DNA of 64,000 nucleotides from Gari tellinella (taxonomy: Eukaryota; Mollusca; Bivalvia; Cardiida; Psammobiidae): positions 100,364,794 to 100,428,793 of the forward strand of contig OV277858.1 in NCBI GenBank assembly GCA_922989275.2, written 5' to 3'. Position 1 is the stretch's first letter. Each line of letters starts with the position of its first letter. Below, piece by piece: positions 19,389-51,232 of the stretch. The position numbers were made by a program, and so were the translations under genes. Below the pieces are notes generated by a model. It did no database searches, was not told the origin of the DNA, and was given only the letters and a program-made list of their open reading frames with translations.

Positions 19389-19521
19389 TACAGTGGAGAA
19401 TGCGTTATTCTATCTAGTAAATAAACGCAATTACACTAAAGCTTGTATTTCCATTGCAATTAGTTTGGAGCCGGATCAGACGCCGGGTAACCCGGCGTCT
19501 GATCAGGCTTCAAACTGTTTG
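19389..19521. mobile_element. Partial MITE (TACAGTGGAGAA terminus) with hairpin H1
   Basis: The left terminus TACAGTGGAGAATGCGTTATTC matches (quoted in parts: TACAGTGGAGAA, CGTTATTC) the ends at 38853 and 24765. It is followed by the hairpin 19461-19521 with arms TTTGGAGCC/GGCTTCAAA and a GACGCCGGGT/ACCCGGCGTC core. The right terminus is missing. Confidence 0.6.
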
Positions 19522-20510
19522 CCACTCAGATTAAAATGGAAACGCAAATGAAATGAATTTACTGTTATCTGTTGTACTCAATACCCAATAAGTGACCTTT
19601 TGTGCACTCCGACGGATGTTCTTATGGTAGGATACTTGTGTGGCTATTTTCTATTGTTTTGTTTTGCGTGGCTAGCCACACAACAGACAATTTCTTTTTG
19701 CTTTTACTTGGAATAGAATAATCTGAAGGCTAACCCTATCCCTAACTCTATGTCCTACGACTGGCCAGGTCAATGTCAAAAGAAATGACCAGGTTAATGT
19801 CACACGAGACGGCCAGGTTAATGTTATTCAATTATTGGGCTAAAAGTTTAGCCACATAAGTGCCCTCCCGTAAGCACGCACGCACGGACGGACAGACGAC
19901 GGAAAGGTGAACCCTTAGTGGCACCTCTGCCTGCAGCAGGTGACACAAAACAACGGAAAATTACTGACGACATGCAATAAAAATGAAATAAACTTAATGT
20001 AGTTAGTCTCTGTATTTACCAAGCTTTGGACTAATAATTGAAATAAAAAACAAATAGAAATAAATAGAAAATAAATATAAACGTTTCTATTTTAGACATT
20101 TAAAACATCGTGGGCTACATTTTCGACCTTTTTTTTTTTTTAAAAATGTTTGTTAAATCTTCATAGAGGAAACAATGGAACAAAACATGATATTTATCTT
20201 CAACCTCATTACAAAATGAAAATTTTAGATTGTTAACGTCTAAACATTTGTATCTTCCCGCGTCAATCCATCACGCGGGCATAACACCGTGTCTAAATCA
20301 CGTGTCTTAGTGCCATAATCAGTTTAGAAAATATGTTTCAAGAAATCGTTTTAAATAACCTATAAACCATTTGCTGATTTCTTCCCACAATCTGTATCTA
20401 CCATTTGGTGTCGTTGTAGAGAGGGAACAGTGAACACTGTATTTTATTTTTACTTTTGTTGCACCATATGGTTTTCAGTCTCATTATAAAGGACGATAAG
20501 GTTCCTAAAA
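19522..20510. other. No gene; short tandem repeat
   Basis: At 19758-19828 a ~28-bp unit (GGCCAGGTYAATGTCA, Y either pyrimidine) is repeated three times. The remainder is AT-rich with no credible coding. Confidence 0.4.
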
Positions 20511-20558
20511 CAGGGCGACCAATCACGTGACTTTTGTATTGATAGTATCTACTAACAA

Positions 20559-20582
20559 TGGCCGACAGCTTTCAAGAAAAAA
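20559..20582 (+). other. Candidate 5' exon: ATG plus splice donor in each arm of the TIR element
   Basis: ATGGCCGACAGCTTTCAAGA encodes MADSFQ, and the next codons EK(R) lead straight into GTGAGT, a strong splice-donor consensus. An E-box-like CACGTG lies about 35 bases upstream. The identical cassette is present inverted in the right arm (minus strand, about 23735-23758), so both read inward. This looks like a captured or native promoter plus first exon. No downstream exon was identified. Confidence 0.4.
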
Positions 20583-22199
20583 GGTGAGTTATGCATTTTT
20601 CTTCGTCTATAGGTATTCTTGCAATCCGACTTATCGACCATGGTCTGGTCCACACATTTCCGGTCATTTTGGTACCAAAGGCTCAACGCCGCATGCCATA
20701 GTTTCTTTGGAATGCTTGTCACAAGTTTCGAATTGAGGGGAAAGATTCTTAAATTTTCGGGATACGGTTTACTAACGAAGCTTATTTTTTGGCATCTAAC
20801 TCGAAAACGGTTTTATGTCCTGTGACTTCAGATGTAGAAACACATTCTACAAGATTCAGTTTGCCCAAAAATGTGTGTTTTTCATAAAAAATCAAATAGT
20901 TGCGTGATAGAAAGGATGATGTACAAGTAGAGTAGTGTATTTAAACGAAATAATGGAGATAGAGTATACTAATCAAAATGGATAGAGTATTTTAATGATG
21001 GCAGTATGTCCAAAACGGACCAGTTTGCGTGGCATTTCCGAAAAGAGACACCGTTTTTTCAAGAGCTCACGAACAACATGTCATCATTACCTTTGAACTA
21101 TCTGTTTGTTTGATATAGTTTGCTAGTCCCGTTGAAAATGTTTAATTATAAAACCGGTAAGTGTGCCCGCCAAGTGGTCCATGACATTCTAGGACAGTTT
21201 AATTGACCACTCTGACCTGATAGCTTTTAGAAAATTGGTTACTCAGATCTAATATCTCTAGTTGAGGTCTGTGTTCCCGTTGCTGATTTGTGCCTTTTAG
21301 AGCGGACTCATACGCCCCACCACGATTGCCCAAATTTATGAATTTTTAAACCGTTTATCTTTTTAAATATGAATTTTTAAACCGTTTATCTTTTTAAAAA
21401 AATACGATTAAGTTTAGTTTCGTTGGCCAAAAATTCGAAAAACAGAATAACCTGCCCTGCAGAACCCTAAAAGAAGAGAATACTATTTGTTAGAAGTGCT
21501 TACGACCTTGTTTTGTTTTTGTTGTTACGAAAGTCTGGAACCTAACCCGATCCACTTAACTGAAAATCATGGACCCGCACCTGATTTATCTTGAACCAGC
21601 GATAAGGAGATAAGTTACAAAAATATCCCACAAATTTCACGCATGCACGGATGTTTAACAATTTGTAAGGAGTATTGTTTATTGCTACTAAACATATTGT
21701 AAAGTAAAACACGCTCATACATTCTGCTATAGCTGCCCACATTTAAGAACCAGTGAGTGTAGTTCAAGTTGTATTTTGCTCATGAAAAAAGGGTGATGCT
21801 CAAAATTGGCTTCCAACGATGGATCATAATCCGTAGGATTCTCTATACTGCCCAACTTTAAGCACTGATACAATATAATGGCTCGTGAGGTTGGAAATAC
21901 CGAGACGTTTCTCGATTCATTTCGACGATTTAATTACATGCCTTAAAAATGTTATAATTCCTTTAATCACTTGAAGTCTTTCGATATAAGAGTTATAAAA
22001 TCATATTCCATACAGAAGGTGCGAAAGTATTATTGGATTTAGGGTTGTCTGTATGTTAATTCTGTCCGTCCACTAGTCTGTCCATACGAAAAATTCTAAT
22101 GTCTATCAATTCAATTGAATAACGGTGCGTCGTCCGGATAACTCCGTTAAGCTTGGTTTATCAAGGACGAATTTATTTTCATTTTACGAGTACGACGTT

Positions 22200-22486
22200 T
22201 GTTTTATGTTTATAGAGAGACATGGAGCACGTCTGCACAACTTTGTGGCAAAATGTACAGAAGCAGGGCTGGTCTTAGCATCCATGAGCGCCAGCACATC
22301 AACAAGGCGCCCTACAGATGCTGTGGAAAGAATTTTTACAGCATCATCCACCTGCTAAGCCACAGATATAGGTCTTATCCATACAAAATGGCATTGATTG
22401 CTTGTGTACAAAATCACCGCAGTCGACAACATTTTAATGGTTTTAATGAGTATTTCCACTGTCAGTGTTGCCACAGACTCTGAATA
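22200..22486 (+). pseudogene. C2H2 zinc-finger protein relic
   Basis: One 94-codon frame reads GKMYRSRAGLSIHERQHINK then APYRCCGKNF, SIIHLLSHRYR, matching the spacing of a C2H2 finger (K-x-Y-x-x-R-x-x-L-x-x-H-x-x-x-H) and its linker, with the first Cys pair and several later residues degraded. A further CQCCHRL may be a third finger start. No domain outside the fingers is visible. It lies in the interior of the 3.3-kb TIR element, so it is either a host fragment the element picked up or host sequence. Confidence 0.45.
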
Positions 22487-24151
22487 ATGGTTCAGAATTA
22501 TTGAGTCATTATATCATAATCCTCGCGTAAAGGAATATAGTATCTCATCACGATCTTACAAATACAAATGGCGATCTGACAGCTCCAAAGTATGTCAAGT
22601 TTTTGGAAAAGCGTTAAAACTTGTAAATTGAAAATTCATGATAAAGCGAATTTGCCGCCTCTTGCTTATCACACATCATATTCCGAAAATGGACATCATT
22701 AAAACGACAGAAGGATGATGAAAATATGATGATTCCATCAGTTTTCTAAACTGTAATTTTGAACAGCGATGTGAAGTGAATATTAAGTCACTTTCAAGTT
22801 ACTAATTTGTTTTCACTTATCCCCTATTGTTTTAGTTTTAAAGGTTGACAAACATGGAGTTAAAATACCACTATTAAAATTAACACGGAGCTCAACATCT
22901 GAAAAATCACAGTTATGATGAGGCAAACGTTTAATTAATTATGAATAAACACATAATATTGAACACTCAAGTTTATCTGGTTCGCCTTCACAATAAATTC
23001 TGCTTAAGTAAACACAGTTTCATTCACCATCATCAGAAATTCCCATGCGCTTCCCAACCAGCATCTTTGAATAAACACATCATATTGAAAACACTCAAGT
23101 TTATCTTGTTCGCCTTCACAATAAATTCTGCTTATGTAAACACAGTTTTCTTAAAGTGGTTCTTCTTTTTCCCATTATCTGAAATAAAAGTCATACTGTA
23201 GATAGAAGCAAAGCTAAGTTACACTTTAGATAGAAGTCAAGTTTAACATCTTTAACCGTTTCCTCCACTCCAAAGTATATATATACCATGCAAACTGGCT
23301 CGTTTTGGACATACTGTCATCATTAAAATACTCTACCCATTTTGATTAGTATACTCTATCTCCATTATTTCGTTAAAATACACTACTCTTCTTGTACATC
23401 ATCCTTTCTATCACGCAACTATTAGATTTTTTATGAAAAACACACATTTTTGGGCAAACTGAATCTTGTAGAATGTGTTTCTACATCTGAAGTCACAGGA
23501 CATAAAACCGTTTTCGAGTTAGATGCCAAAATAAGCTTCGTTAGTAAACCGTATCCCGAAAATTTAAGAATCTTTCCCCTCAATTCGAAACTTGTGACAA
23601 GCATTCCAAAGAAACTATGGCATGTGGCGTTGAGCCTTTGGTACCAAAATGACCGGGAATGTGTGGACCAGACCATGGTCGATAAGTCGGATTGCAAGAA
23701 TACCTATAGACGAAGAAAAATGCATAACTCACCTTTTTTCTTGAAAGCTGTCGGCCATTGTTAGTAAATACTATCAATACAAAAGTCACGTGATTGGTCG
23801 CCCTGTAAAAGGCATGTCTGTTTAACATTTGTCTTGCTTTGAGCAGCTGTGCATTCAGTGGTCGTAAAAAGATGATTTACTGTATAGTCAAAATGGTTTC
23901 AAGAGGATTCATGGTTAGTCCGAACTTAGCACACATTTTTTGTTTTCGTACACCCAGGGTCAGTTATTTTCATTCCTTCTCTTACAGTGAAGAATCTGTT
24001 ATTCTTTCCCGTTTAAAGCGACTCGCAACCAGATGGTGCATTAAAAATAGTAGTTTGTAAATATGTGTCAAACGCTTATATGAATGGTAAAGAATTAATT
24101 TAGGATAAGAAATTCTGTTTAAAAAAATGTATTTCAATAAAAAAAAATACT

Positions 24152-24240
24152 GGTCTCTGGTGGGATTCGAACCCGTGGCCCGGCATTGGCGGACAGAAGG
24201 CAAAATAGGGGAAACCGCTTAGACCAATGGACCACGGAAC
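24152..24240 (-). tRNA. tRNA-like sequence (SINE head or tRNA pseudogene)
   Basis: The minus strand has an A-box match TGGTCCATTGG and a perfect B-box GGTTCGAATCC, followed by a T run that could end pol III transcription. The 5' and 3' acceptor strands do not pair, so it is not a functional tRNA. Confidence 0.45.
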
Positions 24241-24529
24241 TATCCGTTTATCTGGGATCGATTTAACGTATATTAATGTGTAGCGATCGAAAGTGCATAC
24301 AACTTCGTAATTCGGCTCGTGTTTATGTCTGAGCCCGTGTAGAGAAGCAACAACAACAACTATACCGTCTACTAGTCGGTATAGAAAAACAATGGAAAAT
24401 ATCTAAAAATCTAAGATTCGGTGACGATTCTTGAGACTTTTTTTGGACTGATCATATTTTTTTAATGTCAGAAGCCAAATAATGCCACAAATTTGCTTTT
24501 ATTTGAGTATTTTATTTTATTTTGACAAG

Positions 24530-24765
24530 TACACCATCCGGTTGCGAGTCCCTTTAAACGCAAACGTACGCAACGCAAAACACTAAAACGTAAAGTGCAA
24601 CTTTTGGACAATTCTGATAATGCATGTTTATCATGGTGGCAAACAGTTTGGAGCCTGTTCAGACGCCGGGTTACCCGGCGTCTGATCTGGCTCCAAACTG
24701 TTTGCACTGCAAATAATAGTTTTAGCGTCGCGTTTATTGGGAAAGAATAACAGATTCTCCACTGT
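24530..24765. mobile_element. MITE (CTCCACTGTA terminus) containing hairpin H2
   Basis: The right terminus GAATAACAGATTCTCCACTG-TA matches the ends at 19389, 38853 and 41318. Hairpin H2 (24639-24705) is nearly perfect: GGAGCC/GGCTCC and GACGCCGGGT/ACCCGGCGTC. The left end, within a GCGTTT/AAACGC-rich segment near 24550, is approximate. Confidence 0.6.
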
Positions 24766-25129
24766 AACCCCTTCACCGCTATACCGTCATCAAATTTAAA
24801 CCATTTATTGTCATCTGCTTTTATTTCTCAAATATAAGTTTTAGGCATTTTGACTTAACTCTTTCAACACCACGGACCAGTTTAAAATGTACACATTACA
24901 TTTGCAAACAGTGTAGAGATCAGAAGGCTCCTAAAGGAGTCCTCTTAGCAGGATCTTATATGGTTTGCTAATTCAGAGCATTATTTATTGAGCTACCCAG
25001 AGTACCTCAAATATCCACAATGGAACATAATAACCCTCAAGAGTTACTTAGTGTTGAAAGAGTTAAGGAATATTGAAATGAGCATAAAATATAAGGTGTC
25101 TGATCAGGATCCAGCTGTGAAGGGGTTAA
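24764..25129. mobile_element. TTAA-type MITE, outer of a nested pair
   Basis: The termini TAACCCCTTCACCGCT and AGCTGTGAAGGGGTTAA are inverted repeats. The right one carries TTAA at 25126-25129; the left one is altered to GTAA and abuts the MITE at 24530-24765. A second TTAA-type MITE (24855-25066) lies inside. Confidence 0.6.
24855..25066. mobile_element. TTAA-type MITE, inner, with hairpin H3
   Basis: The termini TTAACTCTTTCAACACCA and AGTGTTGAAAGAGTTAA are inverted repeats with TTAA at both ends. It contains a hairpin copy at 24904-24969 (core GGCTCC/GGAGTCC). Confidence 0.7.
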
Positions 25130-25340
25130 AACTTAAAATAACTTAAGGAAAATGCACCGACAGGAAGACTGTTGGGGGTAGTCCGGAGCATACACACATC
25201 GTTCGTTTCCGTACACCCAGAATCGGTTAGTTCCGTTCCTCCATCTGGAGGTGACTTCTGTTATGGGAATACGGTACAGTGTCTGCAGTTTAAATCATTT
25301 GAGCCGTGCCATGAGACAATCTGCCTTATTGCATTCAAAT

Positions 25341-25524
25341 AGCGTAGATCAAGGCCATCCGCCGCGTCAAAGACGCGGTGGCTGGTGTTGATCTACACTG
25401 TTTGACAACCACATGCATCTAAAAGCATTGTATTTAGCAGTGTTATATACGGTTTTTGGCAGTGTAGACCAAACTCTGATACATAGCCTGGGATGACAAC
25501 GGTGCTTGGTCTGTACAATGTTGC
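25341..25524. repeat. Two hairpin copies (H4, H5) in tandem
   Basis: H4 (25341-25414) pairs GCGTAGATCAA with TTGATCTACAC, with core CCGCGTC/GACGCGG. H5 (25459-25524) pairs GTGTAGACCAA with TTGGTCTGTAC and has lost most of its core. Confidence 0.6.
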
Positions 25525-26990
25525 AAATACAATAAGGCAGGTGTTATCATTGCATTGTTATACATCTTCCGTGTTTTGTAATTGTTCACATTTCAATTTA
25601 TATGAAATGAAATACATATATATATATATATATAAAGTCTTAATCATGTAAAAAGTAACATAAGTGTTAGGCAATCAATCTTTAAGGATGCATATAACTC
25701 TTTGCACTCAGAGAATTGCTTGATACAGAAAACATGTAACACAGATATTATACACATTTTCCATAGGAGGCAATTCACTTTGCAGTAAAAGCTTTAAAGC
25801 TTGATTCATAAACTCGTCATTACAGGGAGTCATTTCGACTCATTTGCTGCTCAGGTATTCACATGTATTTACTGTGCCTGTATTTTTCACTTATCTTCAA
25901 TAGCATACGAGCGTTTAAAACTCGCATACGGTGCTCTTCTTTGATAATTCTTATCTTCCATATGTAAGATTTGAGGCAATCATGAGATTTGCGTTAATTT
26001 CATGTAACATTCAAAGGAACTGAATTTCAAGTTAAGAAAACGGCTTTTTTGAACGCGCAGCTTAACTTGTGTTAACTAGACACTAGTTTTGTGAAAAATG
26101 ACTTTGGCCCCTAGGTTACTTGGGACAGTGCTACAGCGAAGATGTAATTGATATCAAACTACTGGAAATATTTTAGACTAGCCAAGACATGCATCTAAAT
26201 TGGAAAATGGTTTGCGTTGGTGTTCCTTCGTTCCATGGCTTTCTGAGAATTCCATAACTTTTCGTGTTGAGTATATTTGCCACTCATATAAACATGAATA
26301 GTCGAAAGTGTAGAAAAGTTGTCCTTTCTATATTGTATTGTGATTTGTTTTGCGTATCGTTTGCCCCGCGATACTTTGACCATTAAAACTGCGATATTAA
26401 ACCCATTCACTGCCACGATGTCTTCTACTTTTACGTCTGCTTTTATTTCTGAAATTTAAATTTTGGTTAAACTGAGTTTAACTGACTGCAAAACGAATCG
26501 TAATGAGTGTATACATATGTATTCATATAATTCACTGCGCTACATGGTGTGTAAGCAGAATAAAAACTTGTTCGCAAGTAACCATTATACTCGGAGGAAT
26601 GCAGAGAATGGATTAAGACAAATGGCTGCGTAAAGTCCAGTTATATTTTCGAGCAAACATGCAATCTGACAAATGCAATGTTCGAGGACGATCACAGACT
26701 CCTTTCAAGCAATTGGAATTGCCTAATGTCATAAAGCTTTTGGGATGAGTCTGATATCGTTCTCAATTTTTGATTGGTCAAGTTTAAGCTTTTGCTTTAT
26801 AACCACTGGACTCGATCAGACGCAATGTTACTCTGTATCCAGATTGTCATCCGCCACAGAGTTCAACATTTCGATAGCCCAGCTGCTTGAAATATTAACA
26901 CACTCACCCCTGAAACTTTTAATGGACAATTCCAATTTAAAAATAAGTCTAGTCCATTTTTTACTATTTAGGGTTGATGTTAACACTCTT
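25525..26990. other. No gene recognised
   Basis: AT-rich sequence with a short TA microsatellite at 25615-25634. Frames are short and motif-free. About 26735-26830 resembles the repeat at 11385-11525 and 41156-41265 (GATTGGTCAAGTTTAAGC and an inverted GCTTTTGC region). Confidence 0.35.
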
Positions 26991-27003
26991 TTTTTAAAAA
27001 TGA

Positions 27004-27070
27004 CAAACAGTGCAGACCCTGATCAGAGGGCTCCTTAAGGGGCCCTCTGATCAGGGTCTACACTGTTTGC
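27004..27070. repeat. Hairpin H6, near-perfect
   Basis: Arms CAGACCCTGATCAGAGGGC and GCCCTCTGATCAGGGTCTAC with outer AACAGTG/CACTGTT. The core differs from most copies (GAGGGC instead of GACGCC), yet pairing is kept. Confidence 0.8.
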
Positions 27071-27531
27071 ATAAGACAAGTGTAATCCACACAGGTACAC
27101 TGTTTGTAAATGACGACTATACTCGTCGCTAAGGTTGAATGTGTCACGTTGACAATCGCGGGTAATATTAAAGACAGAGCTAAAATAAATAATATGTTAT
27201 GTCTAAAAAAGGCATGAATGGCCCAGTTTCTAGTTATCAGGTCTGTGTAACCACAAACTCATTTTGTTCAAAACTGGACCTTCATTTACACCAACACGTG
27301 GCAGAAACCCTTTCACTCTATATTGTAACCTACGTGGTACGTTTGTTTATGCAAATGAGGCTTCCCAAATCGTTGTATGTTGGAAAGTGAGTCAAGTAAA
27401 TAGCGCAACAAACATCTCATTGTGTGAGCTTAAGCTTTGCACAGACGGTGTATGCTGTTGCTGGGTCACTCGGTTTGCACTTTACAATACTATCTATAGA
27501 GTGTTTACAGTGTTGAAGACAGATGGTTGCT

Positions 27532-27770
27532 TTAACCCATTTATACCCAGTGGATTCTTCCATGTTTATATAATATATAATATTGGATTAGTCAATGTTT
27601 TATCAAACGGATGCCAGGTCAAAATTGTCATTTTTTCATTTTGTTTTATATTGAAATTCCTATCGGCAAACAGTGTAGATTCTGAACAGACGCCGCATTA
27701 TGCGGCGTCTCATCAGAGTCTACAGTTTGCCCATATCCCATATATGGGATCGAGGGCACAGATGGGTTAA
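27532..27770. mobile_element. TTAA-type MITE with hairpin H7
   Basis: The termini TTAACCCATTTATACCC and GGGCACAGATGGGTTAA are inverted repeats with TTAA at both ends. Hairpin H7 (27666-27730) near the right end pairs AGATTC with GAGTCT and GACGCCGCAT with ATGCGGCGTC. Confidence 0.75.
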
Positions 27771-28006
27771 GGAGCATTCCAGGACTGAACTATGCATCCT
27801 CTCAGATTTCCTACCTGGGATCTATCGAACCTCTATAAATTCCACGGTCATTGTACATTTTGCAGTCTTAAAAACATTTAAAAGAAACAATCAATGCCAT
27901 TCGAGCTCTGATTTGGATCCATGCTGTATGCTGAAATAAGTCAAGTCGCGATCAGCAGCCAAAAGGTTAAGATATGTAAACAATATAAGTCTGAGAAAAC
28001 GTATAA

Positions 28007-28205
28007 TACAGTCGAACTTCGATATCTCGAACTCGCTTAATTCGAACTATCCGATTTGTCGACACACGAATTGCATTATTTTGTGTTCGGTTAAGTCAAA
28101 CATATACCCGTATTTCAAAGTTAAAACGTGACTAAGCCACCTTTTAACTTTGAAATACGGGTATGTTCGACATAGCCGAGTTCGAGATATCGAAGTTCAA
28201 GTGTA
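28007..28205. mobile_element. Tc1/mariner pogo-like MITE
   Basis: The ends TACAGTCGAACTTCGATATC and (inverse) GATATCGAAGTTCAAGTGTA, extended by GAACTCG/CGAGTTC, form ~28-bp TIRs next to TA. A longer internal inverse match (ACCCGTATTTCAAAGTTAAA) makes the element foldback. Such ends are typical of pogo/Tigger derivatives. Confidence 0.8.
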
Positions 28206-28295
28206 GTAATATTCTTTTCTGAAAAAAGTAAAGAACTGTTAAAAAATTGATGTTACGAAAATTCCGTTTTCAAACGGCTTAATGAAGGAACAATT

Positions 28296-28544
28296 ACTGT
28301 AAAACAGGTATTTTTCGCGTCATGAATATTTCGCGTAATGCGATTTTGTATTAATTCGCGACATCATGCAATATTTCAAGCAGGTGGCAGCTTAAAGCAG
28401 GTTGAAAGTAACGCAGAGTATGTCTTAAGGCACATTCTGCTTTACTTTCAACCTGCTTTAAAAAGTCACCTATTTTCAAAACTAGAGACATTCGCGAATT
28501 AACGCGTAAATTATATTCTCGCAAATAAAACCGGTTTTACAGTA
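28296..28544. mobile_element. TA-flanked MITE carrying the second hairpin family
   Basis: The ends TACTGTAAAACAGGTATTTT and AAAACCGGTTTTACAGTA are inverted repeats, and TTCGCG/CGCGAA motifs are repeated inside. The centre (28386-28465) is a hairpin with arms GCTTAAAGCAGGTTGAAAGT and ACTTTCAACCTGCTTTAA, also found at 40231, 47354 and 48892. Confidence 0.75.
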
Positions 28545-34478: not shown

Positions 34479-34808
34479 GACAGTGTTCCCTACAAACAAC
34501 GACTCCCTCCCTGCTACGACTTGCCGCTCTTCCTGTATGTCAAAACTTTTCAAGGCTGCAATATACATGTAGTCTACTTAAAATTGCTGTTTTCTCAAAT
34601 TTACATATTAGACATTTTGACAGAATAAAAACATAATGACGAGTGGCAAACAGCTTGAATCCAGATCAGACGCCGCGTTACGTGGCGTCCGATCTGGATT
34701 CAAGCTTTTTGCAAATGTAAGCCAATGTCCCTCCCTACAATAACTCCCTCCGAACAACGCACATTTTTTTGTCTCCCATTGTGTGTCGTTGAAAACAGGG
34801 AGCATTGT
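34479..34808. mobile_element. MITE (CAGTGTTCCCT terminus) with hairpin H10
   Basis: The ends ACAGTGTTCCCTACAAACAA and GTTGAAAACAGGGAGCATTG-TA are diverged inverted repeats. Hairpin H10 (34646-34712) has arms TTGAATCCAGATCAG and CCGATCTGGATTCAA. The same element, inverted, is at 50869-51232, and part of it is at 47151-47300. Confidence 0.7.
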
Positions 34809-36989: not shown

Positions 36990-38056
36990 TAATACAGTTG
37001 ACATATTAACAAAACGTGTAACACCACAAAGTATGAATATAAGTAAAAGGGTTAGGCCACAAGTTCTATCAACATTATTAAAGGCCCTCCCCTAAAATGG
37101 GGCATTTGTAACATTGGCAGTGGTTTATGTTTGTTAACAGAATTAACAACTGGAATTGTTCAAAGAATATAAGTGCTATGTTCGTAATAAAGATTATCAT
37201 GTCGTGTTACATCTCTTTGGAATCGTCTTTTCAAGACGAATGTCACAAGACAGGATTAGATGGAGAAATACATAATAATTGAGACTTTTATAATCTGACT
37301 TACGACAACATTTGTCGTACGAAGTTATAAGAAACGGGCCCCAGGTTATTATAACAGCGACTTGGAACTGGTACACTACACTCCACCATCCTAAGATGTA
37401 AGCACGCACCATATTTGATATCCCTTGCTGAAGATTATAGTAAAAGTTATATAATCCAGACAATTATATTTGTCTAAACTTGATGTCAAATGTCATTCCT
37501 AACATCCTAAGATGTACATGTACTCACGCAAAAAGTTTGGTGTCTCTAGATATGATGTGGTTTTGCAAATATGCCCAGGATAAGCTGTTTTCTATTATTT
37601 AGGTCAAAGAGAGTTCGGATAGCGGACGAACGGATGGGCTCACGCACAGTTTATTCACTGTATGCGTTCACATCTATGCTTTGGGAACATGATCATGTAA
37701 TTTACTCCTTAACGTTCACCATCTGATAAATGTTTGAACTAAATTGTTAAACGTCAAATTCACTCCCCTTAGTATCATTTTCAGCGATTTGATTTATCTA
37801 TAAGTCTTCTTATCCCATTACCCCCATCAATACGACTTTTTTATGACTTTAATTTATTTCTCCACAGAAGAAAATAATTCCTAATTATACACTGATTGAT
37901 TTGTTCCAGAACAAATATTTTATTTTTTCCTAGTAGAGTAAAGCTTAAAGCAGGGGTCATCGCTTTATTGTCGTCTGCTTATATATTTTTCTCTGCAAGA
38001 CAAGTTTCAACGTTAGATTTAAGGTTGAATAACTCAATAAATATCAATAAGAGTGT
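36990..38056. other. No gene recognised
   Basis: AT-rich. TCCTAAGATGTA recurs at 37390 and 37505 with similar neighbouring sequence, suggesting a decayed duplication. No coding. Confidence 0.35.
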
Positions 38057-38129
38057 TAAACAGTATGGGTCCTGATCAGACGCCGCTTTATGCTTTACGT
38101 GACGTCTGATCGGGACCCAAACTGTTTGC
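38057..38129. repeat. Hairpin H11
   Basis: Arms GGGTCCTGATCAGACG and CGTCTGATCGGGACCC, outer AACAGT/ACTGTT. The loop is enlarged (TTATGCTTTACGT region). Confidence 0.75.
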
Positions 38130-38852: not shown

Positions 38853-39101
38853 TACAGTGGAGAAAACGTTATTCTTTCCCAATAAACGCGTTTACGCTAA
38901 AACTATTATTTCCTTTGCAAACAGTTTGGAGCCATATCAGACGCCGGTTAAGCCGGTGTCTGATCAGGCTCGAAACTGTTTGCCACTCTGAAAAAATGAA
39001 AGGTCAGAAATGCCGAAAAATTGTCATTTTCTACATTTTAGTGTTTTGCGTTTGCGTTTTGTTTGCGTTTAAAGGGGAAGAATAACGTGTTCACCACTTT
39101 A
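38853..39101. mobile_element. MITE (TACAGTGGAGAA terminus) with hairpin H13
   Basis: Left TACAGTGGAGAAAACGTTAT, right GAATAACGTGTTCACCACTT-TA, inverted repeats of about 28 bp. Hairpin H13 (38916-38983) pairs GGAGCC with GGCTCG and ACGCCGG with CCGGTGT. It is the most complete copy of the family at 19389, 24530 and 41318. Confidence 0.75.
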
Positions 39102-40230: not shown

Positions 40231-40302
40231 TTACAGCATGTTGAAAGTAAAGTAGAAAGTACCTAATGGTATATTCTGCTTTACTTTCAAAATGCTTTAG
40301 GC
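40231..40302. repeat. Second hairpin family, copy b
   Basis: Arms GCATGTTGAAAGTAAAGTAG and CTGCTTTACTTTCAAAATGC around a CCTAATGG loop. Confidence 0.65.
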
Positions 40303-41317: not shown

Positions 41318-41576
41318 TAACAGTGGGAAAAAAAACGTTATTCTCTTAAACTATTGTGTCCATTGCAAACAGTTTGGAGCCAGTTCAGACGTCGGTTTGG
41401 AGCCAAATCATACGCCGAGTAACCCGGTGTCTGATCAGGCTCCCAATTGTTTGGTACTCAGATTAAAATAAACAGTCAGAAGTATAAAAAAGATGTCATT
41501 TTCTCCATGTTAGTGCACTGCGGTTGCATTTCTTTGCGTTTAAAAACGGGAAAGAATAACGTTATCTCCTCTGTGC
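41318..41576. mobile_element. MITE (ACAGTGG terminus) with rearranged hairpin H14
   Basis: The ends AACAGTGGGAAAAAAAACGT and AATAACGTTATCTCCTCTGT match the family at 38853. The hairpin (41364-41453) has its left arm duplicated in tandem (TTTGGAGCCAGTTCAGACG and TTTGGAGCCAAATCATACG) against one right arm. Confidence 0.65.
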
Positions 41577-42134: not shown

Positions 42135-42234
42135 CTCTCTAGGTGCGCGTATTCTGTCAATGTATTAGAGAACGGAGTTAGGTGAAATCCAACAAGAAGG
42201 GGAAATAGACATATTTTTATGCAAGAATAGTGTC

Positions 42235-42366
42235 AATACACCTGTTTTTCGTGCATTAACATCTGCAGAAGCCCTTGTGCTGTATTGGAGCCCTCGGCTA
42301 AAGCCTCGGGCTTCAAATACAGCCCGCGGGCTTCTTCAGATGTTAATGCACGAAAAAAGGTGTATT
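42235..42366. mobile_element. Nearly complete 132-bp palindrome (foldback MITE)
   Basis: Arms of about 60 bp, AATACACC...TTTTTCGTGCATTAACATCT and the inverse, with a loop of only a few bases around GGCTAAAGCC. Mismatches are few. Confidence 0.8.
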
Positions 42367-42369
42367 AAC

Positions 42370-43598
42370 CCTATAATGCCATATATATTTATATACACAT
42401 TTACGCATATACATGTAGTTTCATAAGAAAATAGTGCCATTATATTCAGTAATGAATAAGCAATATCAGAAATATTTCTTGTATCCTAACAGATCGTAGC
42501 TTAAAGGGCCACCTGTCTTCAAACTATTAACAGTCTATGGCATTTAGGGTTATAACAAACGTTCTAAGCGTGCTTCGTGTAAGATTGAAACATGTTTTAT
42601 GCGGTAATACTGTAAAATACTTACGTTGGATGCGCCATAATTGAATAAATGTTTTGTTTTAATAGATTGCTTCAGATAAGATGTATAATATTTTATCTAC
42701 ATATATTGTGTGATTGTGATTAATTCGGATTTGTACTGAAAACCTTTTCGGAATTTAAAACATCCAATTGTAATAATGCGAGATTTAGTAGAACCTGATT
42801 AGAAAGTAGCTATATCACAGAAAGTTTTCATAACAGTTGTCACAGTAATTAAGTCCGAATTAAGTTTTCACGCCACTTAACAATGATCAAACATCTTGTG
42901 ATTATTTCCGCTGAATTGGCCTCCCTCAAACAACAATCTGTTAATACCTTTTTACCGCTCAAAGCAAAAGGGTTTCGGAAATCTGACACCTTGAGTTGAG
43001 CTAATTACGTCGATGCATGCAATTTTGTGTGTGATTTGATTGGTTATTGCTTGATCCGCAAATTCGATTTAAATGCGTGTCTTTACGTGATGACGCATCT
43101 GATAAAGCTTATGGGGGACTAGAAACCTTAGCAGCAACAACAAATCTTACCGTGGGAAGGTCACATTTGTGATCTGACCAAGTTGTATGCAATACAAAAT
43201 ATGGAAAGGACTTTTTTATAGGTAAGAAAATTTACCACGTCGTTTTTGTTAAATGTGTGACTGTAACACATTCATGTTGTTTTCATCATTTGATTATTTT
43301 ATGTTATGGTTATTTTAACACAAACTAAAAGTTACGTTAACGCTGCAGTTGAATGTGAAATATCTTGCATTTGGCTAGTTCCTTCGAAACTTAAGAATAG
43401 TATTAGAAATTTGCAATAGTGCAAAGTTAATAAACGTATAAAGTTCACACATTTCCACATTAACACACATGGAAGGGTGGTTTATTGAAATGTGTGTATG
43501 CTGCATATACTTTTACCTCGAATAAGTTATGGTGCATTCAGTGTTGGTCTGTATTGGGCTTTAAGTTCTTGTTATGGAGACAAGACTGTATATTTGTA
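42370..43598. other. No gene recognised
   Basis: AT-rich non-coding sequence. A possible ATG-plus-donor at 43201 (ATGGAAAGG, GTAAGA) has a stop just before the donor and is not called. Confidence 0.35.
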
Positions 43599-44068
43599 AT
43601 ACCCCATTTCACTAGACGGCGCTCGATGGCAATCTCCGCGCTTCGACCAGAGCGCCATAGCTCGCCTCAGGATGAGGCGGTCTAACGGCACTTACGATCT
43701 GATTGCGACCGGATAACGATCCGATGGCGATCCGTTAACGATCTGTAGGATCCGATGGCGACTTCATGGTCATTGGTCGCCACCCAATTCATAAAAAATG
43801 TCACAACCTTGAATTATTAAATTGCGCTAATTGGCGCTCACAGGCGACTAAGATGCGATCGACTGCGCTCCGATGGCGACCACTGCGATCTATGGCTTTC
43901 AAACGAGATCCGATAGCGATGTTAGCGACCGATGGAGATCAATTACCGCCTTTTTAGCGCTCTACTTGATACAATTAGGGAGATATTCTATGGAGACATG
44001 TGGCGCTCTGCCGCGTTCATTCGTTTTAGATTCGGCAGCAGATGTTTAGGCAAATAGACATACATATA

Positions 44069-44260
44069 CAGGGCTCCAGATAAGGGGGTATTTCAAAAAC
44101 TAAAATCTCTATTTCTGCTTTGAACCTTATCGTGTCACTACTCATTAGAATCGTCTCTGCGATACGATTCTAATGAGTAGTGACACCATAGGATTTGATG
44201 CTGAAATAAGTGAGAAAATGTTGGATTTATGCAGTTTACTCCTTCTTATCTGGAGCCCTG
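44069..44260. mobile_element. hAT-like MITE nested in the GCGATC element
   Basis: The ends CAGGGCTCCAGATAAG and CTTATCTGGAGCCCTG are perfect 16-bp TIRs. CATATA lies directly on both sides (44063-44068, 44261-44266). An inner palindrome ACTACTCATTAGAATCGT/ACGATTCTAATGAGTAGT occupies 44140-44185. CAGGG ends suggest hAT, although its usual duplication is 8 bp. Confidence 0.75.
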
Positions 44261-44466
44261 CATATAGCTGCTTTCTTTTTGACATGTGTCCACTTAATGC
44301 AGTAGGATAGTAATGCAGACAAATCCTATAAGTGCTTTCTGCATTACGTTTGTACTGCCACACATCTTTAGAAATCTGTGTTTTCCATTTAATAGCTACT
44401 ACAGATGTTCTAACGGACATCAATATAACGCCATTATATCAATACTTTTTTCGGTATCATCATTGT

Positions 44467-44500
44467 TTAGGTATATAACAGTTTGGATCCGGATGAGACG
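44467..44500. repeat. Hairpin fragment (left arm)
   Basis: AACAGTTTGGATCCGGATGA then GACGTCG: a left arm only, of the 19461-type hairpin. Confidence 0.5.
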
Positions 44501-44929
44501 TCGAATTACATCATGCAATTTGGATATATTGATAGAAAATACTATCGGGTATTTTAAAATGCAGAGAGTCACTATCAGATCGCCACAGAGCCCGACGTAT
44601 CTACTGATCTGCTTTGGTGGGTCATGGTGGCGCTCTAAGGTGATCTGATAGCACTCCAGTTACGATCTTGGCGATCAAGTAGCGTTCCGATGGCGACTTA
44701 GGCGATCAATTAGCGGTCTGATGGCGTTCTGGCCAGAGCGCCACGGATCTTTGTGCAGGGGAGTAAACCGACGGCGACCTTTGCGCCCATGGAGATCAGA
44801 TAGCGATCCGTTTGCGCTCAGGTAGCGCTCCTGGCGATCTAGGCGCTCTGTATGGCGACCTGCGGCGCTCTCACAGAGCGCCATAGATCGCCGTCTAGTG
44901 GAATGGGGGTATAACATTTACTATCTTGT

Positions 44930-45560
44930 TAAACACACGCAATTCGATATGCATGCATGTCACACGTATTTTAGATTATTTTCAAATAACTGAATAATAA
45001 TATAGCAGTCTGAAATTTCCACGCAGTGTATAATTTACAGTAGTATAACTTTCACTCGGCGTAAATTTCAGATAATGTTTATTACGTGGTCATATACTGA
45101 ATAAAAATGATTTTCATGCCAAATTATGTATTAAGTGTAGTTTGTACAATCATGTTAAACGCACGCAAGACGGTACAATATAAAGTGTAATATTTACGTA
45201 AATGTTAAACGCATGGAGGCTAGTATGCGTGCATGCCACACGCATGTTAGATTCTTTCAATTACCGTACCTAGATAGCATCAACAGATAAACAGTACGCA
45301 ATCATATTATTTTGTGGATCTCACTCAGTGTAAAATTTACAATTGTGTATATTTTACACAGCGTAAAATGCATGTCATGTATACAGGTAATCTTTAAACG
45401 CACGCATGGCGGTATGCGTGCATGTTGCACGTATTTTGGATGGTTTCAATTATTAACTTATAGTATTTAATGTTTACAGTGTGAAATGTATGTGTAATTC
45501 ACGCATTGTTAAGTTTACAATCGTGTAAATTTCACGCAGCGTAAAACTAGGACAGGGTAT
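44930..45560. repeat. Degenerate ~200-bp tandem repeat
   Basis: GTTAAACGCACGCA-like starts, GTATGCGTGCATG, CACACGTATTTTAGAT and GTGTAAATTTCACGCAGCGT recur three to four times at about 44930, 45150-45205 and 45390. The last block is incomplete. Confidence 0.6.
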
Positions 45561-45702
45561 AGTACGGGTGTATAGGTAAATTTTGTGCGCTGAACCGTGA
45601 CTGAGCTTTTCTATTTATAGAAGTTGCAACCATTCCATGTTATGGGTAAGTTAGGTTTCAAACCTTAACTTGATATTTAAAATAAGATTTTGATATATAT
45701 TA

Positions 45703-45790
45703 GTCATCGTGGTCGAGATAGTAGAGTAGTTGCTGCACGTGCAATAGTGTTTTGCTGAGTAAGGTCATGAGTTCGATACCCGGTGGATGC
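45703..45790 (+). tRNA. tRNA-like sequence (SINE head)
   Basis: A-box-like TGGTCGAGATAG and B-box GAGTTCGATACCC at SINE spacing. The long, unpaired middle excludes a working tRNA. Confidence 0.4.
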
Positions 45791-46096
45791 TGTTTTATTT
45801 ATGTTTTTGGTTTGGAAAGGTATTTTTTATACTTTATATGACGATAACCACAAGGAAACTATAGTAACTGATAAGTATTTAAAAAAAATACATTATTCAA
45901 TTTCTTAGTACATTTCAGTATAACCACATTGTTAAAACTAAAGATTCTACTACGTAAGACAGAACCATCGGATCAATAGTCTAAATTCCATGATACATTT
46001 AGCATATATGTTGAACAATTCAAATAAGTAATTATTTGAAAATTAATGCAATAAAACATAAAAATTAATTATAATTTTAAAATAAAATAAAATAAT

Positions 46097-46190
46097 TCCT
46101 ATCGGGAATCGAACCCACAGCCTTTTACCCTATTGCAAGTACCCATACAATAAGGCTTACACGCGACCTATTTACTCTACTCTAACTCGA
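46097..46190 (-). tRNA. tRNA-like sequence (SINE head)
   Basis: The minus strand carries B-box GGGTTCGATTCCC with a GTAGAG-type A-box region upstream. Stems are incomplete. Confidence 0.4.
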
Positions 46191-47150
46191 TTATTGATTT
46201 AGTTTCAAGACACAAGGCACACTATCCTTAGTATACCATGAAAGGTAGGTAAGTCCTGATCGAATTCATGGTTTGTGGTGCGTTTTACCTCTACGGGTGG
46301 ACTCGTCCTAAAGGTCACGGCTCACGTGTCAAAATCCGACTATACATGGCCACGTTTTTAAAGTAACTGATTTACACGTAAAGGAGTCCAACTCGTTTTA
46401 CAAATATTGTTTTTTATAAAAGTGGTATGCAATGAGCGTCGGTGTACTTATGTACTTGTTATTATAAAGATACAAACACGTGCATACGCTGACTCAACTA
46501 AAACGCTTTATACGCACTGGGCCAGGTGTGCATTGTAAACAGTTTAGGACCTGACAAGACGTTGCATTTTTAAAACATTTTTGACTAGTGTTGTTTCAAT
46601 GTTATTTGCACAATTGTAAATCCAACCTGTATTGAATGAAATCTAAACCTCCTTAATCTAGAACTCTCTTTAAATCGAACTGCTTCAGGACTTTTCCCTT
46701 CTATAATAGGGGCCAATAACAGTTGACTTCCCAATTGCATACAACCTTTTTTCCAATTTTGGTGAAAGACTTTCCCGAAAATGCAATGCATTATATGATT
46801 CTCACGAACAAGAGGATAAACTACATTAGAAATGTCCTATTCTATTACCAGTCCTGTTTAAATGATAAACAACTTTGTTTTTAAATATTTAGTTAAAACA
46901 ACTTTCTTTTTTCTGTATTTAAGTAGATTTTAGTTTTCTAAGTGTCTTGAATGTCAGTTTACTTTCCCAATTTGGCCGAAAATTGCGTTTGAATTTCCCA
47001 ACATAAAAGGCGAAGGCCTGTTCCCGTTTTTAAGAAAAACAACAACCATAAAACGGCCATTTGTTTACTTTATACGGAGGGGTTTGAATTTTAAATATTT
47101 CAACGTATATCTAAGTGTAACTCTTTCTAGGTCAGGACGTCATCTATTTT
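46191..47150. other. No gene recognised
   Basis: AT-rich. A left-arm hairpin fragment (AACAGTTTAGGACCTGACAA) lies at 46537-46566. Frames show no motif. Confidence 0.35.
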
Positions 47151-47300
47151 AAGCAGCGTTACGCGGCGTCTGATCTGAATTCAAGCTGTTTGCAAGTGTA
47201 AACCAGTTTCCCTCCCTATAACGACGATCTCCAAACATCACATGCAAACTTTGCCTCCAATTGGATGTCGGTGTTGAGAGGGAGCACTGTTCATACCTTT
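47151..47300. mobile_element. Partial MITE of the 34479/50869 family
   Basis: A hairpin right arm GCGGCGTCTGATCTGAATTC then AAGCTGTTTGC, followed by TTCCCTCCCTATAACGACGA and the terminus GAGAGGGAGCACTGT. The left half is missing. Confidence 0.55.
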
Positions 47301-47353
47301 TTCAGGGCTGCCATTTCTCCGGATTTTTCCTAAGTCTTCGGATTTTTATCCTA

Positions 47354-47450
47354 GCAGATGGTAGCTTAAAACAGGCTAAAAATAAAAGCAGAATGCACCT
47401 TAAGGCGCCTTTTGCTTTACTTTCAACCTGTTTTAAGCAGTCATGTATCT
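47354..47450. repeat. Second hairpin family, copy c
   Basis: AGATGGTAGCTTAAAACAGG and CCTGTTTTAAGCAGTCATGT arms, loop GCACCTTAAGGCGCC. Confidence 0.65.
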
Positions 47451-47907
47451 TCAAAACAAGAAACAGACTATGGGGTAAAGGTACGATTAGTAAACTTCCA
47501 TGATCGCATCTGAAAAATTGAAACTTTGAAATCTTAGGAATTTTATTATCAACTTATGGCAGCCCTGCTATTTCGTTCATAGTTCTGTGTCAGTCATATT
47601 TTTCTCTACAGTAGATATCACGAAATCATTGTCCTGAAAGTTGAGATGAAAAATTGAACCTTCTGAAGCTTAAAGTAGGATAATACTCGGGCTCGGTAAT
47701 TCTCTGTGACAACACTATACCTAAGCCAAATTAAAATTAAAGGGACTCGCAACCAAAAGGTGTATTTGCACAATTAAATGAAATACTCAAATAAAAGCAA
47801 ATGTGAATCTTTATCGTGCATCTGGTATCATGATCAGTTTTTAAAATATCCTCAAGAAAAGTAATCAAATCTTAGCTTTTAGTTATTTTCCATTGCTTTT
47901 TTAAATC

Positions 47908-48135
47908 GAAGGGGTATTCGGATATCGCACCCGCTTCTCACTAATGCGGTATCGAGTTCGATCCCGGGTCGGGGCAGTATGTGAGAGAGTACATTTGTCG
48001 ACCGTCCGAACACGTGGGGTTTCTCTGGCCACTCCGGTTTCCTCCCACAAAATGACCAAATATGCCACCATTCGAGCCATTGAGAGTGAATTGCCCTTAG
48101 TTGTTAGAACTTGTTTCAATAAATAAAATTTAAAC
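47908..48135 (+). mobile_element. tRNA-derived SINE
   Basis: A head with B-box GAGTTCGATCCCGGG, a conserved-type body TTTCTCTGGCCACTCCGGTT then TCCTCCCACAAAATG (a block shared by many animal SINEs), and a tail AACTTGTTTCAATAAATAAA. About 230 bp, apparently complete. The 67-90 codon frames here are artefacts. Confidence 0.75.
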
Positions 48136-48651
48136 AAAAACAAAAAGCGTTTTCAAATCCGTTTAAAGACGGATTGAATCCATTTCAACTCAATTGAAAC
48201 CGTTCGCACATGATATTGAATAGGGGGTTAATATCCTGATCAGACGCCGAGTTACTCTGCGTTTTAACAGGATCAAAACTCTTTTGTCATCATCTTCTAT
48301 AATCATAATCTATAACAACAGCAGAATCTGTATGAAATTGTCTATGTGAATAATGTTACATTGCTACAGTCAATACTCTGATATGTTCTCTAGGTTACGT
48401 TTTGTTTTGGTAGAGGGCGTTGTCGTCTGAGTTTCTGTACAGTGATGTGTTGTTAGAACTGTTATTTTCATATAGACTCGAATATGTTCTCTATGTTTCG
48501 TTTCGCTAGTGGGCTCAGTGATGTGTTAAGGTGGTTCGACAGCGGGCGGCCCGCATCTCGAGTTCCAGAAATGCTGATGACTTTCACCTGATCTTTGCGG
48601 CACGTGCTTATAGTAGAAAATTTAGATAAAGAAAAGTTTGATCTGCTTCAG

Positions 48652-48735
48652 TGTCGTCTCTGTTAGCGCAGTTGATACGGTGATTGACTTGCAATCCATA
48701 GGTTCTAGGTTCGATTCCCACTCGCTTCAAAACTT
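48652..48735 (+). tRNA. tRNA-like sequence, Ala-TGC-like loop
   Basis: A-box TAGCGCAGTTG matches the consensus and B-box GGTTCGATTCC is good. The anticodon stem ATTGA/TCCAT pairs at four of five positions around loop CTTGCAA (TGC). A T run follows. The acceptor ends do not pair, so probably a pseudogene or SINE head. Confidence 0.45.
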
Positions 48736-48891
48736 TTTTTTTTTTAACAAATTGTCCGATTTTAGTGACTAGTCAATTCATAACGCAGTGATCAAAGGAC
48801 AGGCTATGTTTAGTCTATTAATAATGAATAATATCAGATGCAAGTATAGTCAAGTGACAGCTAAATTTGTGAGGATTTATAGCCTATATAA

Positions 48892-48985
48892 CAGATGGCA
48901 GCTTAACACAGGACAAAAGTAATGCTAAAAGATAGACCCTAAAGGAGCTTTTATACATTACTTTTGTTATGCATTAAGCAGTCAC
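48892..48985. repeat. Second hairpin family, copy d
   Basis: Arms CAGCTTAACACAGGACAAAA-GTAATG and CATTACTTTTGTTATGCATT-AAGC, loop ACCCTAAAGGAGC. Here TTTTGTCC replaces the TTTCAACC of copies a-c, and the other arm differs in step. Confidence 0.65.
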
Positions 48986-49139
48986 TTGCCTTTAAAGATC
49001 TAAAGGCTACCGTATTCAATGGTCCCTTATTACAGATTTGACTTATGGTATTATTTAGAGCTGACGGCATTTTAAAGTTGAACTCAAGCGAGGTTACTCG
49101 TTTTGTGTTAAGATTTTGTCAGAATTTCAGGAAATCATG

Positions 49140-50160
49140 TACAGTATAACCTCTGTTGGTCGACACCTCTCTTGACCGGAAACCTCTGTTATCCGACCCT
49201 GCTGTTTGGTCCCGGCAGTTTCCCTATTTGTTTTATGTAACCAAACTCTCTCTTGATCGGATCCTCTGTTAACCGTTATCCGACATACCTTGACGGTCCG
49301 ATGAAGGCAAATTAGAGGTTGTTCACACCTCGTTATCCGACGGTATGCTGACCTGTGGTCATTGACAGCGACTATGTACGTGCAGGTGATAATGACACAC
49401 ATCGCTCGGATGGCCGTGTAAAACACAGTGTGTTGTTTTAACAGTGAGTGAATGATATGAGGGTTAATAAGATAACTTAAGCCAACAATTGTATAAGCAG
49501 TGTCGCAGTGCCGAAAACCCAACTCATCCATCCTTTCCATTAATGGCTAAACATGATTTCGTGTTTAAATTGCACAGGTGTCCTCACTGTCAACATGAGA
49601 AAGTGAGAAATATATATCTAATTCGCCCTCCGCATAATTCGAGGTCTATATCAATAGTCGCAGGCGTAAAAATATATGCTAAAGTTATATTGAGAGAAAA
49701 TAAATACATTCATGCGATTTGAAGTTTTTGTTAATTTCCAGCGAGTTCGACCTAACGACAGTGGACTATACTTGTACATAAAATGTAAATACGAATATGC
49801 CGATGTTTTCATCGAACCCTTGATATGTACATGCGTGTTTACTTCCGATTTTACACTATATATACACGCTTTATGCCTACTGTAGTTTAAAGGAATAATG
49901 AGAAGAACAGTGTAGATCCGGACCAGGTGACTCTTAGTTTAATCTGGAACGATCTGATCAGGATATATGCTGTATGCTGCAGTCATACATATTTAACATG
50001 TCGGTTGGCATCGAGGAATTCCCCTCGCAGCGAAAAATGGACTGAATCTTTGGGTGTGTAAACTTGTGAATGTAGGCATAATTCCGTTAACCGACACCCT
50101 CTCTTAACCGACTTACAAACGTGGAACCATGGGGTGTCGGATAACAGAGGTTATACTATA
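49140..50160. mobile_element. Pogo/Tigger-like non-autonomous element
   Basis: The ends TACAGTATAACCTCTGTTGG and GATAACAGAGGTTATACTAT-A are inverted repeats next to TA. Subterminal words TTATCCGAC/GTCGGATAA and TTAACCGAC recur inside. No transposase. It also holds a LINE tail (49497-49535) and a decayed hairpin (49909-49979). Confidence 0.75.
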
Positions 50161-50785
50161 TAAAATGTAAATTCTACTGTAGATTTTCATTAAATTTTTT
50201 GTGACTAATAGAATTTAGTTATATCTATCTAATAAGAGTAAAATTAGTGTATGTTAAACAGCTAGATTTTTTGTAATTTGATATTTTCAGAATTTGACTT
50301 TTTTAAAACATTGATATTTCAAGAAAATATGTCATGAAATACTTTTGTTTGCCCAATATCTTATAGTCCATGTACAGTTTACTTGAATGTACAGAAATTA
50401 TTGAGTTATATCATTCTATAAAGAAAATATTCCTGTTTATTAAAAAAGGAGCTTTTCTTGACAAAAAGTCCTGTCAGAAAAAAACGGCACTGTCACTTTT
50501 TTTTTATTTTAACGATGTTTCACTCTCCATATGGTATATTTCAATTTAATCAAGGTTTCAAAGAATTCTAACACAGAATAAGCTGACCCGCGAACCACCT
50601 TAAGAGATAAACTATTTCTGTACAGTCAACTCTTTCGCTGCAAAATTTAATCGTCTGCTTTAACCCTCTTACCGCCAAAATATCGTCTGCATTGGTTTGA
50701 TTAAGTTGGGTTCTACGGCACCGCGAGGCATGAAATGGAAGTCATACTAAGGGCTGTTTTGACTGAAGAAATGTCGATACGAGTG

Positions 50786-50818
50786 TCGCGGCGTCTGATC
50801 AGGATCAAAACTGTTTGA
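50786..50818. repeat. Hairpin fragment H17 (right arm)
   Basis: GCGGCGTCTGATCAGGATCA then AAACTGTTTG: a right arm only. Confidence 0.5.
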
Positions 50819-50868
50819 AAGTGTTTGGCGACGTTGACATTGAAATACTTAAATTTGAGTTTTACGGA

Positions 50869-51232
50869 TACAGCGCTCCCACTCTACAATGACATCCAAT
50901 GGGAGACGAAAAATGTGTGCGTTGTTCGGAGGGAGTCGTTATAGGGAGGGAAATTGGCTCACTTTTGTAAACAGCTTGAATCTAGATCAGTGGCCGCGTA
51001 ACGCGGCGTCTGATCTGGATTCAAGCTGTTTGTCACTCGTTATTAAGTTTTTTATGTCAAAATGTCCATTATGTATCTTTGAGAAAAACAGCAGACGGCA
51101 ATTTTAAGCAGACGGCATTGTAGCCGTGAATAAGTTGAACACATGATTGTCCTGTTGAGGGAACAATGGAAAATGTCGCTGCAAGGAGGGAGTCGTTGAT
51201 TGGAGGGCCGTTGTAGAGAGGGAACACTGTAT
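50869..51232. mobile_element. MITE with hairpin H18
   Basis: The ends TACAGCGCTCCCACTCTACA and TGTAGAGAGGGAACACTGTA are inverted repeats. The interior is an inverted copy of that at 34479-34808 (GGAGGGAGTCGTTATAGGGA). Hairpin H18 (50967-51032) pairs TTGAATCTAGATCAG with CTGATCTGGATTCAA. Confidence 0.75.

Follow-up and report, generated by a model that had tools for sequence, protein, structure and literature searches.

The DNA analysed here is a stretch of 64,000 nucleotides from the bivalve Gari tellinella (GenBank assembly GCA_922989275.2, contig OV277858.1, positions 100,364,794 to 100,428,793 of the forward strand), referred to below as the window. It carries many copies of a hairpin of approximately 65 bp, designated hp1, the arms of which differ between copies. 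The first-pass annotation of this sequence counted more than 20 copies or fragments from 19.4 to 57.2 kb and reported the first 19 kb to be free of them. When the window was searched with the arms of 11 hp1 families, seeded by hand, 22 places were found; 21 of these lie at 19,456-57,143, as claimed, and a fragment at 11,303-11,334 shows that the statement about the first 19 kb is slightly wrong. The arm pairs quoted in that annotation are present at the places given for them, except that AGATTC/GAGTCT (27666) includes one T-G mismatch.

Hairpins and their host elements

Family A hairpins are located at 19456-19522, 38917-38983 and 41395-41453 (a partial copy), all on the plus strand, and at 24639-24705 on the minus strand, the last being 99 % like the family consensus and lying within a family A element. 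Family G is found at 34646-34712 (plus) and 50967-51033 (minus), and families C and H at 27666-27728 and 38056-38129 respectively (both plus). Family K is represented by a copy with a TTAA apex at 27003-27070 and an old copy (73 %) at 57078-57143, both on the plus strand. The single family I hairpin (25335-25405, plus) has divergent arms and lies between inverted flanks, for which no match was found in the local sample. The hairpins are real, and nine of ten window copies tested fold as DNA much more stably than dinucleotide-shuffled versions (z −8.0 to −14.4); the copy at 24904 has a z of only −1.75. A known structured RNA was considered and rejected, no Rfam match above the gathering score being found in the window.

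The window is ordinary for this genome of 1.6 Gb, as judged by the density of hp1 at 25 grid loci, each of 10 kb (250 kb in all), where 150 hp1 places make up 3.5 % of the bases (8,807/250,000). The 16-base pattern GCAAACAG-N(42-60)-CTGTTTGC occurs at 131,437 places genome-wide and its reversed form at five. A blind scan of 314 kb (the window and the 25 grid loci) found 102 long hairpins with scores of at least 20, and none after mononucleotide shuffling; 52 of them are hp1, 32 are a second type, hp2, and 18 are others, and the 102 include one AT microsatellite and one pair of adjacent terminal inverted repeats (TIRs).

With few exceptions, the well-preserved hairpins are shown to be the inner core of short non-coding elements of the DNA-transposon type. 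Among the copies at least 95 % like their family consensus, 39 of 41 have flanking sequence in common with at least one other hairpin place, the match extending to both flanks in 38, and 27 of the 29 copies with 90-95 % similarity likewise share a flank. The shared flanks terminate in TIRs and define elements of approximately 205-365 bp in families A, B, C, D, E and G; the ends are TA in families A and G and TTAA in families B, C, D, E, F and H (F being one copy). The hairpin is distinct from the TIRs that enclose it, and is located approximately 40-100 bp from the nearer element end. These elements are bounded by TIRs and too short for a transposase gene, and those of family A are uniform in length and present in high copy number; we class the hosts of hp1 as miniature inverted-repeat transposable elements (MITEs) with piggyBac-type (TTAA) and Tc1/mariner-type (TA) ends. 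The family A element is about 250 bp long with TA ends and the TIR TACAGTGGAGAATCTGTTATTCTTTCCC; its exact 11-bp tips are found within a 31-bp length range at 87,501 places in the genome (control, 0), and the hairpin is enclosed by 18 of the 19 A-type TIR pairs detected at the grid loci and in the window.

Several of the window hairpins can be assigned to such elements directly. The family A copy at 38917 lies in a 249-bp MITE with TA ends (38853-39101; TIR TACAGTGGAGAAAACGTTATTC), and the G copy at 50967 in a MITE of approximately 365 bp, also with TA ends (50868-51232; TIR CAGTGTTCCCTCTCTACAACGG / CAGCGCTCCCACTCTACAATG). The C copy is contained in a TTAA-ended MITE at 27532-27770 (TTAACCCATTTATACCC..GGGCACAGATGGGTTAA), and a TTAA-ended element at 24855-25066 (TIR TTAACTCTTTCAACAC) contains a decayed D-type hairpin (24904-24967). 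We note that the family A MITE around 24639-24705 appears to have been split by insertion of a 551-bp TIR element (24010-24560; CGTTTAAAGCGACTCGCAACC), which itself lacks a hairpin.

Covariation between families and decay within copies

The consensus arms of the hp1 families form near-perfect palindromes of approximately 31-33 bp, the outermost base excepted. The mismatches that they do contain are at pair 18 (CCAGATC versus CCTGATC) in families A, D, J and K, a G-T at the same pair in E, a single C-A in K and, close to the apex, a G-T in H; the consensuses of H and K (three copies each) and I (one copy) are weak. The outer CAAACAG is the portion common to all 11 families, and family F has an extra base in both arms. 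When eight consensuses were compared (families D, I and K being left out), 13 of the 32 pairs were seen to have changed on both sides and none on one side only, with 18 invariant and one departing only through unpaired cells, a level of covariation equalled by none of 500 shuffles. Comparison of family with family gives 359 two-sided differences among 392 differing pair states, although the family pairs are not independent of one another. Watson-Crick pairs account for 291 of the 297 states tabulated at family level (pairs 2-28, 11 families), and a G-T for one. Since G-U intermediates are nearly absent, the constraint looks like pairing of DNA on both strands and not like an RNA fold, which was the example offered in the first-pass annotation. 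Its observation that the arms covary thus holds between families and not within single copies, and the strong covariation is a property of the source families.

The individual copies mostly decay arm by arm after insertion. Change counts and mean arm mismatches were obtained from 89 of 100 listed pattern places (the 11 that are not 67 bp long were excluded), 186 of 211 sequences being assigned to families. In family A there are 189 single-sided changes, six compensatory changes and five other two-sided changes. The mean numbers of arm mismatches within a copy and between copies are 1.80 and 1.89 for family A, 5.14 and 6.16 for B, 2.00 and 2.39 for C, 1.70 and 2.11 for D, 2.00 and 3.07 for E, 1.62 and 1.54 for F, 4.86 and 5.26 for G, and 4.20 and 5.33 for J. 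An earlier comparison, covering 122 of 198 places in the seven families with at least four copies, gave a gap between within-copy and cross-copy left-right values of 0.4 to 1.2 of 31 positions, and in families D, E and G the same-arm (left-left) value between copies is equal to or below the within-copy value. Counts over single copies give A-A at pair 18 in 95 of 108 family A and five of ten family D copies and T-T in six of ten family J and two of three family K copies; in six of seven family E copies it is paired. This mid-stem A-A or T-T mismatch thus recurs, and is common to TA and TTAA elements. The outcome that the first-pass annotation had named as refuting its interpretation, arm variants explained by a few source families with pairing that decays after insertion, largely describes the copies, though not the source lineages.

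A different picture is obtained for those lineages when variants private to one element are separated from shared variants, that is, those present in at least two copies, which are either copied onward or recurrent. In 25 family A elements chosen by their TIRs and length alone, the private substitution rates are 2.57 % in the hairpin, 2.29 % in the TIRs and 2.51 % in the remainder. The private:shared ratio is 43:11 in the hairpin and 79:62 in the remainder (odds ratio 3.07, p 0.0027), and the depletion of shared variants persists when these are defined as present in at least three copies (p 0.014). Pooling of family A with family D and the hp2-bearing MITE gives an odds ratio of 1.69 (p 0.0062). 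A first count, in which the hairpin seemed to be more strongly conserved within copies (13 elements, 2.2 % versus 5.4 %), mixed sub-families, and such conservation was rejected because the 25 re-oriented family A elements give equal private rates. We take these results together as evidence, strong in one family only, that inserted hairpins can decay freely whereas those of propagating lineages are constrained. Selection on the fold, as raised by the first-pass annotation, is therefore supported for source lineages only, mainly those of family A where shared variants are depleted.

Other hairpins and elements

Hairpins of type hp2 are located in the window at 28391-28461 (CTTAAAGCAGG..CCTGCTTTAAG), 40231-40299 and 47365-47437, and at 83,911 places genome-wide (control, 0). 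Their hosts are a TTAA-ended MITE of approximately 250 bp and a CAGGG..CCCTG-ended element, which at 47303-47567 encloses the third of these copies. The count of 112 hp2 hairpins in 250 kb includes at least 16 from one tandem array (L033:1-10000), which is built of units of approximately 1,277 bp with two hp2-like hairpin relics in each. Near the 12th pair of hp2, GGCTG is often found opposite GGTTG, and this hairpin may also retain a mismatch (uncounted). An hp3 hairpin at 44128-44190 lies in a CAGGGCTCCAGATAAG..CTTATCTGGAGCCCTG element and an hp4 hairpin at 28104-28164 in a TACAGTCGAACTTCGATATCTCGAACTC-ended element, and hp6 is located in a GGGCCCGTTTCATAAA element. There are fewer hairpin types than labels, since hp5 is akin to hp2 and hp6 to hp3; hp1 family D has a weak match to hp5 (E 0.003), and no sequence match was found between hp2 and hp1 families A, D and F.

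The genome contains 86 matches to PF13843 (piggyBac), some with open frames, and three piggyBac transposase loci were examined, two of which contain complete elements. The element at locus L035 (692-3815) is 3,124 bp long with an 18-bp TIR, TTAACCCTTTCGGCGCCA, and that at L036 occupies 767-3469; no near-perfect hairpin is found inside either, the latter having one imperfect 56-bp inverted repeat (79 %). At the third locus, L034, the left end was not found and the end that was found resembles that of the hp2-bearing MITE (TTAACCCTTTCCCACATGGAAGC versus TTAACCCTTTCCCCCATAGAAGC).

The L036 element, with an open frame of 553 amino acids, lies exactly within the TTAA apex of an hp1 family D hairpin (737-3501), and a MITE at L014:4589-4838 lies within the TTAA apex of an hp5-like hairpin. 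Use of the apex as an insertion hot spot is not supported, since its genome-wide use is close to background: arm ends continue into TTAACCC in 617 cases and into an intact apex in 18,151 (3.3 %), and among all 6,128 TTAA read on both strands of the window and 24 grid loci, 167 (2.7 %) are followed by CCC. The local count (two of 48 TTAA elements versus 25 of 3,368 TTAA sites), which had suggested a hot spot, gives a p of 0.05 with a threshold chosen post hoc. Elsewhere in the window, pieces of a broken non-long-terminal-repeat retrotransposon (PHD-like, endonuclease and reverse transcriptase) are found at 798-4196, and a PIF1-like helicase piece at 13893-14633 is perhaps derived from a Helitron.

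Explanations and related systems

That parent lineages which multiplied tend to keep the hairpin suggests that it helps the element to spread. The copies were generated by a limited set of source families that differ in their near-perfect palindromes, and they then lose their pairing arm by arm; in the propagating lineages the hairpin was retained better than other parts of the element, as the statistics support mainly for family A. The palindrome may act in cis, and at the level of DNA, as an aid to amplification: by adopting a hairpin or cruciform form, for instance during strand separation at replication or under supercoiling, it would ease excision, synapsis or re-copying of the short element. 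An element whose hairpin is broken would have fewer descendants, and new families would be founded by palindromes that had been compensated or made anew, which is the proposed reason for the covariation. In favour of this reading, other elements contain hairpins of similar size but different sequence, and neither of the complete piggyBac elements has a near-perfect one. This combination of source families, decay and a DNA amplification aid is the best explanation overall, although we hold it tentatively, at slightly less than an even chance. The broader proposal is doubtful, namely that MITE lineages with TTAA, TA and CAGGG ends each acquired a near-perfect DNA hairpin of 60-80 bp as a general amplification device, with at least two and perhaps at least four independent sequence origins, and with selection on foldability only in propagating lineages and little or none on inserted copies, so that a non-coding parasite would evolve a structure that covaries.

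Several results weigh against the amplification aid or against free decay of the copies. The hairpin is not needed by every TIR family: in a survey of the window and loci L001-L032 (of which L001-L008 had been selected by the hairpin pattern), 13 of 25 local TIR clusters, which are partly redundant, contain a palindrome with a score of at least 20 and two contain one scoring 17, and ten have none above 9. Within-copy arms are closer than cross-copy arms in seven of eight families, by 5-35 %, and in the earlier comparison the within-copy value was below the cross-copy left-right value in all seven families, significantly so in A, B and E. Two-sided changes exceed those in shuffled arms in family A (6 versus 2.2), B (14 versus 5.7), E (5 versus 1.5) and J (10 versus 4.4), an excess of which sub-families or rare arm copying could be the source, and family F has had a base added in both arms. 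In the test of shared variants, the family A hairpin does not differ significantly from the TIRs (32:16, p 0.18), and neither do those of the hp2-bearing MITE (p 0.31) and family D (p 1.0). Compared with the remainder, the hp2-bearing MITE (26 elements; 44:31 versus 126:124, p 0.24) and family D (14 elements; 36:13 versus 91:42, p 0.59) depart in the same direction as family A without significance. The private rate of the hp2-bearing MITE is lower in the hairpin than in the rest (2.5 versus 3.7 %, p 0.02), a result at odds with free decay unless alignment is poorer in the remainder.

It is unlikely, though worth weighing, that the hairpin forms a small module able to move or recombine by itself, as a parasite of MITEs. 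This would explain the presence of one hairpin family within different TIR types (hp1 in TA and TTAA elements, hp2 in TTAA and CAGGG elements), and two of the 41 best-preserved copies, some older hp1 copies and some hp2 and hp5 palindromes are without an obvious host. However, MITE flanks are shared by nearly all of the best copies, no target duplication is visible by eye at the hairpin edge in the family consensuses, flanks such as GAGTG are shared beyond the hairpin, and the six alignments among 228 places that resemble empty sites are weak (72-88 % identity).

We place at a similarly low level the possibility that the fold acts as RNA, with MITE transcripts forming double-stranded RNA that is processed in the manner of microRNAs, edited, or excised from mRNA by means of paired inverted repeats, so that insertions would be tolerated. 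The hairpins, of approximately 30 bp, are stable, several whole elements fold as RNA with their TIRs paired around the hairpin, and the reduced private changes in hp2 would be expected. MADE1 yields microRNAs (PMC1784062), and transposon inverted repeats are reported to trigger RNA surveillance (PMC13155455). On the other side, one-sided G-U states are almost absent between families, and the family A hairpin is without constraint after insertion, although tolerance would act on inserted copies.

Repair of one arm from the other (quasipalindrome correction through template switching), whether in copies or, as a rare event, in sources, was the other possibility raised by the first-pass annotation and is improbable. 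It would account for palindromic sources, the symmetric one-base difference of family F, the surplus of two-sided changes seen in four families (A, B, E and J) and the somewhat closer arms within copies; as a routine process it is not supported, since single-sided changes dominate, the gap between within-copy and between-copy values is small and the pair-18 mismatch persists. An ordinary history in which palindromes arose together with each MITE and have since gone unmaintained agrees with the decay of copies, and is no more probable given that 11 related families all have compensated near-perfect arms and that shared variants are depleted in the hairpin.

As to related systems, MITEs, palindromic MITEs such as MADE1 and the compensated hairpins of bacterial REPINs are already known. 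The elements described here resemble MITEs of the piggyBac and Tc1/mariner superfamilies in being short, with TIRs, TTAA or TA ends and very high copy numbers, and differ in having an inner hairpin of approximately 65-72 bp that is common to different TIR types and covaries between families. Likenesses of a general kind are offered by the PAL elements of Caenorhabditis elegans, which are palindromic TTAA elements, and by short interspersed nuclear elements, which have core domains common to otherwise different elements. REPINs, which are paired REP palindromes, have hairpins with compensatory changes, as seen here between families, but they are units of bacteria that stand alone and are tied to RAYT enzymes (PMC3116915), whereas hp1 lies inside eukaryotic MITE-like elements. 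MADE1 (hsa-mir-548) is likewise a MITE, of 80 bp, that forms a stable hairpin, although its hairpin consists of its two TIRs (PMC1784062) and here hairpin and TIRs are separate. Palindromes are also found near the ends of piggyBac and piggyBat, where they are sequence-specific sites of 14-19 bp bound by transposase (PMC11707139), whereas the hairpins here are approximately 65 bp long and vary in sequence between families. KolobokP (PMC9587614) was considered and rejected, since it too uses TTAA but has RR..YY ends in place of the YY..RR ends seen here. A term search of the main text of a survey of bivalve transposons (PMC10294476) found neither 'palindrom' nor 'hairpin', six words of the hairpin searched in 5.39 million open-licence papers gave four papers, each matching the same short word, and we found no report in that literature of an inner hairpin common to several MITE superfamilies.

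It is still a puzzle that certain MITEs reach enormous numbers when their autonomous relatives remain rare, and this genome supplies natural variants of a single structural part, in the tens of thousands, with which to approach it. The comparison of private with propagated mutations separates decay after insertion from the needs of the elements that multiply. If the hairpin is indeed an amplification aid, it would provide a testable cis-rule for non-autonomous transposons, and a warning that a repeat family may covary strongly without being a functional RNA.

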